From the NCBI RefSeq assembly GCF_013752535.1, contig NZ_CP058348.1:1550001-1614000 (forward strand): a stretch of DNA of 64,000 nucleotides, given 5' to 3'. This DNA comes from Bdellovibrio sp. KM01. GTDB lineage: Bacteria; Bdellovibrionota; Bdellovibrionia; Bdellovibrionales; Bdellovibrionaceae. Under the pieces are notes generated by a model, which was not told the origin of the DNA, made no database searches, and saw only the letters and a program-made list of their open reading frames with translations. Position 1 is the stretch's first letter. Each line of letters starts with the position of its first letter. Below, one piece after another: positions 10,163 through 27,559 of this stretch. The position numbers and the translations under genes were made by a program.

Positions 10163-10332
10163 AATGCCTAGAGGCCCTCGCTAGGGCTTTGGCCACTGCT
10201 TACCCCAAACTCCGCGACACGCCATCCGTGGCTCACCGTCGCCGGCTTCGCCGGTTCGCGCATCGTGCGCCGACGGAGGTCGCTGCGTGTAGGGTAAGCA
10301 GTGGCCAAAGCCCTAGCGAGGGCCTCGGCATT
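10163..10332. repeat. Long palindromic element 1
   Basis: A 35 bp perfect inverted repeat (10171-10205 with 10292-10326) is extended outward by AATGCC (10163-10168) and GGCATT (10327-10332), the left side having two extra bases. The ~86-base core is GC-rich and itself foldable (GCCGGCTTCGCCGG). The core segment 10215-10289 is shared with palindromic element 2 near 26600, including CGACACGCCATCC and ACGGAGGTCGCTGC. The arms are not shared. It fills the gap between two minus-strand genes. No coding capacity is evident. Confidence 0.9.
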
Positions 10333-26478: not shown

Positions 26479-26511
26479 ATCTAAAAGTATAAAGTTCTGG
26501 GACTGGAAACA

Positions 26512-26756
26512 CAAAAAGGGCTTCGACAATCTAGGCCTTCGCCCAACCGGCGGGAGCGAGCCTGCCTTGGTCACCGTGTCCTGCCTCCTGCGCATTCCTC
26601 GACACGCCATCCGGGCTCAACCGTGGCTCGCCTTCGGCGAGTGCGCGCCATCGTGGCGCCCACGGAGGTCGCTGCATGCGCGGGAGGCAGGCCCCAGCGC
26701 CCAAGTCAGTCTCACTCCCGCCGGTTGAACAAGTTCAACCTCGCGAACCCTTTTTG
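26512..26756. repeat. Long palindromic element 2
   Basis: An imperfect palindrome of about 245 bases with nested pairings: CAAAAAGGG (26512-26520) with CCCTTTTTG (26748-26756), CAACCGGCGGGAG (26544-26556) with CTCCCGCCGGTTG (26715-26727), and 26581-26595 with 26676-26690 (14 of 15). The core 26600-26678 matches the core of element 1 (CGACACGCCATCC and ACGGAGGTCGCTGC shared exactly), while the arms are unrelated to those of element 1. Together with 26757-27118 it fills the 640-base gap between ssb and the lipoprotein gene. Confidence 0.9.
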
Positions 26757-26782
26757 TTTGAGAGGCGACATAATTCTTCTTC

Positions 26783-26812
26783 GAAATTGAATCGCAGTAG
26801 CGATTCAATTTC
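26783..26812. repeat. Perfect 13 bp hairpin
   Basis: GAAATTGAATCGC (26783-26795) pairs exactly with GCGATTCAATTTC (26800-26812) around an AGTA loop, in the ssb-lipoprotein gap between palindromic elements 2 and 3. It has no T-run on either strand, so it is not an obvious terminator. Confidence 0.75.
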
Positions 26813-26962
26813 TCATTGCTCCTCGCGCGGTCAGAGAAGGGGAGGAACCACGATTTTAAAGGGGAAAAAGTAAGAATTTTTACTTTGAAGTAGCGAAAGC
26901 CATCTCCCAAGGGAGGCTTAATGACGAAATTCATTTCTAGGATTTTGTGTGAATGATTACTT

Positions 26963-27092
26963 CGGGATTTTCCCTGTGTGGGAGAGCCCTGTGGAGCGAA
27001 CCTCCGGGCCCGCAGGATGCGGTACCCAAGCCCGGCAAGGCCAGGAAGGCCGGGTGAGTGGAAAAGGGCTCTCCCAAACAGGGAAAAGCCCG
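26963..27092. repeat. Long palindromic element 3
   Basis: A 27 bp inverted repeat with two mismatches: 26963-26989 with 27066-27092 (GGGAGAGCCC paired with GGGCTCTCCC). The ~76-base GC-rich core, read on the minus strand, contains CCCGGAGGTTCGCTCC, resembling the ACGGAGGTCGCTGC block of elements 1 and 2. That suggests a diverged, oppositely oriented member of the same family. It lies 26 bases beyond the ssb stop, so it could form the 3' end of the ssb transcript. Confidence 0.75.
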
Positions 27093-27118
27093 TACCGTAA
27101 ACAAAGAACGAAGAAATC

Positions 27119-27559
27119 CTAGAAAGGAATTTCGTCGTTTGAGTTGAAGCTTGGTTCTGGGCCGAAGTCGTTGAAATTGAAATCGTCACCGCCACCCGAG
27201 TTGTTGTTAGAGCGAGAACCAGCCTCGGCACCAGCAGCACCCAAGAATTGAACAGTGTTAGCCACGATTTCAGTCGCGTAGCGTTTTTGTCCTTGTTGGT
27301 CTTCCCATGAGCGAGTTTGAAGTTTACCTTCAACGTAAACTTGGCGACCTTTAGAAAGGTGTTTGCCGCAGATTTCTGCCAATTTGCCCCATACAGTTAC
27401 ACGGTGCCATTCAGTTTTTTCCTGACGTTGACCGTCTTTAACCCATGATTCGCTTGTTGCGATGTTAAGGCGAGCTACAGTGCTCCCACTTCCGATTGCT
27501 TTCACTTCTGGATCAGCACCAAGACGACCTACGATAATAACTTTATTTACTCCAGACAT
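27119..27559 (-). CDS. ssb: Single-stranded DNA-binding protein
   Basis: Binds single-stranded DNA during replication, recombination and repair and recruits partners through its tail. The OB fold covers residues 1-105: [46 protein letters not shown] and [15 protein letters not shown] Gly/Asn/Asp-rich linker leads to the C-terminal tip NSNDEIPF, the acidic partner-binding peptide. Length 146 is standard. GGAGGG precedes the ATG. It is monocistronic on the minus strand, downstream of the gspN end. Confidence 0.97.

Follow-up and report, generated by a model that had tools for sequence, protein, structure and literature searches.

What is the foldable DNA that occupies the gap between ssb and a lipoprotein-like gene in Bdellovibrio sp. 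KM01, and how is it maintained? The window, meaning the whole stretch of 64,000 nucleotides analyzed here, provides the coordinates used below unless a genome is named; G numbers designate genomes, G000 being the host genome, and L numbers designate fetched loci. The gap contains two large hairpins and one small. A sequence-only reading had described positions 26512–26756 as a nested palindrome built around the same core as another palindrome in the window, element 1, and both the coordinates and the core hold. The main hairpin of this element 2 spans 26544–26727 (plus strand), with arms at 26544–26603 and 26668–26727 that are 60 nt each and 80% complementary; it was delimited by folding and by alignment, being the piece missing from genomes G020 and G016. 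An outer stem predicted by folding, CAAAAAGGGCTTCG / CGAACCCTTTTTG, extends the structure to 26511–26757. The conserved branched head lies at 26590–26682 (plus strand) and scores 102.7 bits with R1, a covariance model of the head made from 23 host-chromosome copies. Element 1 (10171–10326, plus strand) carries perfect 35-bp arms around a head at 10205–10293 (plus strand, 83.3 bits), so that the common core is borne out by the same model. Folding of 26505–26765 against 200 shuffles each gave z = -7.2 as DNA and, with the RNA folded on both strands, -7.5 (plus) and -8.2 (minus), none of the 200 shuffles being as good in any of the three cases.

The third palindrome that had been seen in the gap is real as well (z = -9.4) and belongs to the same family, as a divergent copy in opposite orientation. 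This element 3 (26920–27139, minus strand) has outer arms at 26920–26945/27114–27139, inner arms at 26963–26990/27065–27092 and a head at 26986–27066 that R1 matches weakly on the minus strand (25 bits). Chance folding is rejected by the z-scores of elements 2 and 3, which range from -7.2 to -9.4. All these structures had been placed downstream of ssb on its strand: they do all lie between ssb (27119–27559, minus strand) and the lipoprotein-like gene, but elements 2 and 3 face opposite ways. Between them sits the predicted spacer hairpin (26783–26812, arms 26783–26795/26800–26812), whose 13-bp pairing is indeed perfect; in G011 its letters have changed and the 13-bp pairing is still perfect.

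Searched against the host chromosome, the 245-base stretch gives 26 matches, of which one is its own reverse strand. R1 finds 31 matches there at E<=0.001 and 35 at E<=1, E-values that are rough owing to a short calibration. The elements measure about 150–250 bp, are mostly intergenic and occur as singletons or inverted pairs. Among the matches listed for the genus Bdellovibrio, 22 of 24 genomes carry R1 (E<=0.001) in 3 to 32 copies each; at the level of the taxonomic family, under stricter filters, matches were obtained in 25 of 66 genomes (E<=1e-4) and 3 of 20 genera. The view of element 2 as a second copy of a conserved palindrome is therefore supported by the genome search, together with the covariation and synteny described below. 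A known RNA family is rejected, Rfam being without a match: at the gathering score the window gave none, and the ssb gap gave four weak matches, the best with E 0.98. In a literature search that reached a minority of subscription journals, no description of such a family in Bdellovibrio was found. The nearest kind, REPs and TIR repeats, is described in PMC3733652, in the accessible part of which the word Bdellovibrio does not occur.

The head, of about 80 nt, consists of a P1 stem, a hairpin C and a P2 stem bearing hairpins B and A, that is, three hairpins and two three-way junctions. Across the 23 copies, 95.6% of cells pair. A covariation test on these copies (25 pairs, 500 shuffles) found both sides changed in 9 of the 25 pairs, with 29 such cells against 8.0 in shuffles and 0/500 shuffles reaching this value. 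Two head types, CCGTGG/CCACGG and CCGTCG/CGACGG, are encountered, and orthologues can differ in type. Read on the minus strand, the hairpin B loops of 29 own copies are AAA (13), GAA (9), GCA (4) and three others, and may be compared with the stable GNA triloops of DNA. The head of L020 is truncated; that of L242, in G014, carries about 70 nt of extra hairpins in the loop of hairpin A, and its orthologue L136 has none.

Mismatches in the arms are asymmetric between the strands. Among arm mismatches flanked by pairs in 29 own-genome copies (L144 left out), C.T occurs 68 times, A.C 22, G.T 15, T.T 11, A.G 5, A.A 4, C.C 2 and G.G once, beside 1586 Watson-Crick pairs. C.T exceeds A.G in 24 of the 29 copies and the reverse holds in 3; in a set of 71 loci that contains orthologues and one repeated copy, C.T is counted 154 times and A.G 9 times. 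An excess of C.T on the R1 strand corresponds to G.A mismatches on the complement, and from this sequence pattern we take the complement (minus) strand to be the probable functional single strand. Covariation is strong in the head and wobble pairs are scarce: the preference for them is slight (G.T 15, A.C 22), and since wobble is hardly commoner than A.C, selection at the RNA level is not indicated. The strand asymmetry and the small wobble preference together point to a single DNA strand rather than RNA. Covariation devoid of G.U could also arise from mutation correction alone.

The arms behave quite differently from the head. Between non-orthologous copies their match is limited to a short inner motif; orthologous arms do match between genomes. 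Most copies are common to G000 and G014, and all 28 regions fetched from G014 match the flank of an own-genome copy. Among the orthologue alignments listed for these two genomes, flank identity is mostly about 90% or higher; stems and head have been rewritten with pairing kept at L130/L222, L132/L234 and L150/L226, and are nearly unchanged at L153/L238 and L157/L243. Stem exchange between loci by ectopic conversion was rejected, no donors being found among the copies compared, though head types change. In the left flank of L130 compared with L222, a host terminator hairpin has been rewritten on both arms in genomes that are otherwise very similar.

Some arms derive from host genes. At element 3, the right outer arm (27114–27139) is formed by the last codons of ssb (NDEIPF stop) and the left outer arm (26920–26945) is an inverted copy of this gene end (26 nt, 92%). 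A survey of gene ends in arms (112 hits, orthologues and repeats included), keeping ORFs of at least 146 codons with their 3' end in the outer arm, identified six loci where the 3' end of the neighbouring gene makes up one outer arm and its inverted copy the other: L132, with 22/22 nt copied, L138, element 3 at ssb, L184, L279 and L229. At all six, the native gene is located towards the 3' side when the minus strand is read (two-sided sign test, p = 0.03, applied post hoc). This set leaves out the upstream gene of L129/L159/L216, L137, L151, L172 and L157 (start codon merely called inside the arm), as well as L153, L149 and L145, which have short ORFs (119, 106 and 149 codons) in or next to the element; an ORF on the opposite side is found among the excluded loci at L137 (200 codons), L172 and L153. 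At L138, the inverted copy corresponds to the gene end of G000 itself; the gene end of G014 differs and has no such copy, so the copying is recent. At L153, half of the upstream gene's terminator appears to have been copied in inverted form.

The comparison of related strains reveals discrete presence and absence. Element 2 is present in G000, G014 and G011 and absent from G020 and G016, both of which have element 3 only, and from G003 and G021; homology with G020 ends near 26546, the base of the main hairpin. By-eye alignment shows the inverted ssb-end copy, variably decayed, with element 3 in G000, G014, G011, G020 and G016, and none in G003 and G021. Element 1 is lacking at the corresponding sites in G011 and G020. 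Other Bdellovibrio relatives have a short ssb gap with a plain terminator hairpin (L027, L029, L030, L033, L077), and at L028 the gap holds the element 3 type alone. Some headless sites look like centre deletions, namely L142 in G014, where the centre is lost and the arms are kept, and perhaps L132 in G011, so that absence does not always denote an empty site; deletion and empty site are both acceptable readings for L132 in G011 and for L151 in G014, G011 and G020. No target-site duplication is evident at the absences of elements 1 and 2, where flanks are merely about 70–85% identical, and no shared ends, or terminal repeats, were seen among copies. Discrete insertion had been anticipated; presence and absence are discrete, but the junctions are only partly clean because the arms are rebuilt from flanking DNA. 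Gradual divergence without a conserved fold, the pattern that would have spoken against the reading, was looked for among syntenic relatives and is not what is seen. At every fetched locus with two heads, as located by cmsearch, the order is plus then minus; there are at least 15 such loci after merging orthologues and ssb loci, one with a spacing of 1.1 kb and one with a weak partner (L409, 15.7 bits). A further pair in G000 (713801 plus/714091 minus) has a truncated second head.

Taken as a whole, the family is probably a REP- or TIR-repeat-like non-coding DNA element of the genus Bdellovibrio, whose arms would be rebuilt and extended through templated (snap-back) synthesis within one strand, starting from flanking DNA. 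In this model, the 3' end of the R1 plus strand would fold back onto the hairpin and prime synthesis, and the primed end would copy host sequence situated 5' of the element, generating an inverted repeat; the arms would thereby be both renewed and lengthened. The head would be kept because a putative protein recognizes the single-stranded hairpin of one strand. Spread would be rare and inheritance otherwise vertical, and copies located downstream of genes may incidentally act as transcript 3'-end structures. A more speculative proposal, which we advance tentatively, is a 'self-extending' mobile hairpin: the head would insert and repeatedly grow and rewrite its arms by fold-back priming with fixed polarity, each copy becoming a private palindrome of its own target site.

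A doubtful alternative is a TIR repeat mobilized in trans by one of the genome's Y1 (RAYT/TIRYT-type) transposases, as described for other bacteria in PMC3733652, according to which REP and TIR families typically include inverted dimers. Y1_Tnp genes are certainly available, with 12 in G000 and representatives in 21 of the 24 genus genomes, but R1 has no match within about 2.3 kb on each side of 32 of them (12 own and 20 other), and G002, G012 and G015 carry 18, 7 and 9 R1 copies with no PF01797 match. The same absence around the 32 genes leaves a RAYT-linked REP unsupported. No transposase and no insertion junction with target duplication was found for the R1 family. Another hairpin family, 'Y', of about 125 bp (GGTGAAAAAGGCC ... 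GGCGTAC/GTACGCC ... CCTTTTTGACC), gives this alternative some weight, as it lies directly 3' of two Y1 transposase genes and, in G002, often within a few hundred bases of R1 elements. Its sites are L125 and L119 (G000, near 535.3 kb and 2850.6 kb) and, in G002, L261, L264, L265, L266, L269 and L271. In G002, four R1 copies are carried by a repeated element of 1.2 kb that has a gene for an IS1-like transposase (NCBIfam transpos_IS1, E 2e-11, below cut-off; a weak helix-turn-helix match in Pfam). This element occupies 429–1657 of L263, with copies at L176, L259 and L267, and the family hairpin is located between the gene and the right end.

It is unlikely that R1 acts chiefly as a structured RNA of transcript 3' ends, serving stability, processing or as a protein sponge, even though the fold and covariation are strong and the upstream ORF reads towards 21 of 30 own copies; almost no wobble pairs are present and gene orientation is otherwise mixed. 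In the minus-strand frame, the neighbouring ORFs, a rough ORF-based count, are +/+ at 12 copies, +/- at 9, -/- at 6 and -/+ at 3. A bias relative to replication was rejected: with an origin near 0 and a terminus between 1.6 and 2.0 Mb deduced from the skew of G000, 19 of 30 copies have R1 plus oriented with the leading direction, which by hand count is not significant. Among the 11 R1 matches of strain HD100 (G001), whose c-di-GMP riboswitch falls within published merRNA coordinates, one (1339150–1339246, plus strand) is inside APsRNA6 (1,338,787–1,339,441, plus strand), one of eight attack-phase RNAs in Table 2 of PMC3627812. This favours a role in RNA, but an overlap of one in eight could be due to chance in intergenic DNA, and the transcript passes through the hairpin, has a 92-codon ORF of its own and stops close to a second head, which is truncated. 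APsRNA6 may be an mRNA. At this locus (L409) the ORF resembles a membrane protein by eye and is followed by the family hairpin, situated in the 3' part of the RNA.

Mutational palindromization alone, in which quasipalindrome correction would act on an old and immobile repeat, seems improbable. Templated rewriting is visible, even in the host terminator beside L130, and most copies are common to G000 and G014, as this explanation would have it; what argues against it is that new copies occur at empty sites (elements 1 and 2), that the head is conserved throughout the genus and that orthologues can differ in head type. It is very unlikely that the element is retained for a host function, as a strong, bidirectional terminator or insulator in place of a simple terminator: relatives without the element do have a plain terminator in the ssb gap (L027, L029, L030, L033, L077) and 9 of 30 copies lie between convergent ORFs, but such a function has no need for a branched head, strand-specific mismatches or host gene ends as arms, and the published APsRNA6 transcript reads through one copy.

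The snap-back element that we favour shares traits with several known systems. Quasipalindrome template switching and snap-back inverted duplication make inverted copies of flanking DNA from a folded-back 3' end; R1 also displays inverted flank copies but differs in being centred on a conserved repeat and in recurring at independent loci. Like MITEs and other small mobile sequences, it is short, non-autonomous and dispersed; no shared terminal repeats were seen and, in flanks about 70–85% identical, no target duplications. The RAYT-linked REP, BIME and REPIN sequences resemble it as intergenic, lineage-restricted palindromes found in inverted pairs; R1 forms inverted dimers as they do but flanks none of the 32 RAYT (Y1_Tnp) genes surveyed. 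REPs carry GTAG or CGTC at one end, and R1 has no conserved terminal tetranucleotide because its arms are locus-specific. REPs are also only 20–40 bp long (PMC3733652), whereas R1 elements reach about 150–250 bp and have no fixed end. TIR repeats, associated with tyrosine transposases in TIRtrons, are likewise moderately abundant, long and partly self-complementary and occur as singletons, dimers or clusters, according to the same paper. In contrast, no R1 match around the 32 Y1 genes was found that would link it to a Y1 transposase or make it a TIRYT gene's terminal inverted repeat, and R1 possesses a branched head and locus-specific arms that include host gene ends.

If this interpretation is correct, intergenic palindromes of a model predatory bacterium would not be fixed terminators; they would form a family in which the ends of host genes are copied into hairpins, and this would account for the abundance of foldable DNA in the ssb gap. 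The family would lend itself to comparative study of fold-back DNA synthesis in nature, and would also provide a strand-specific branched DNA head with a putative partner protein.
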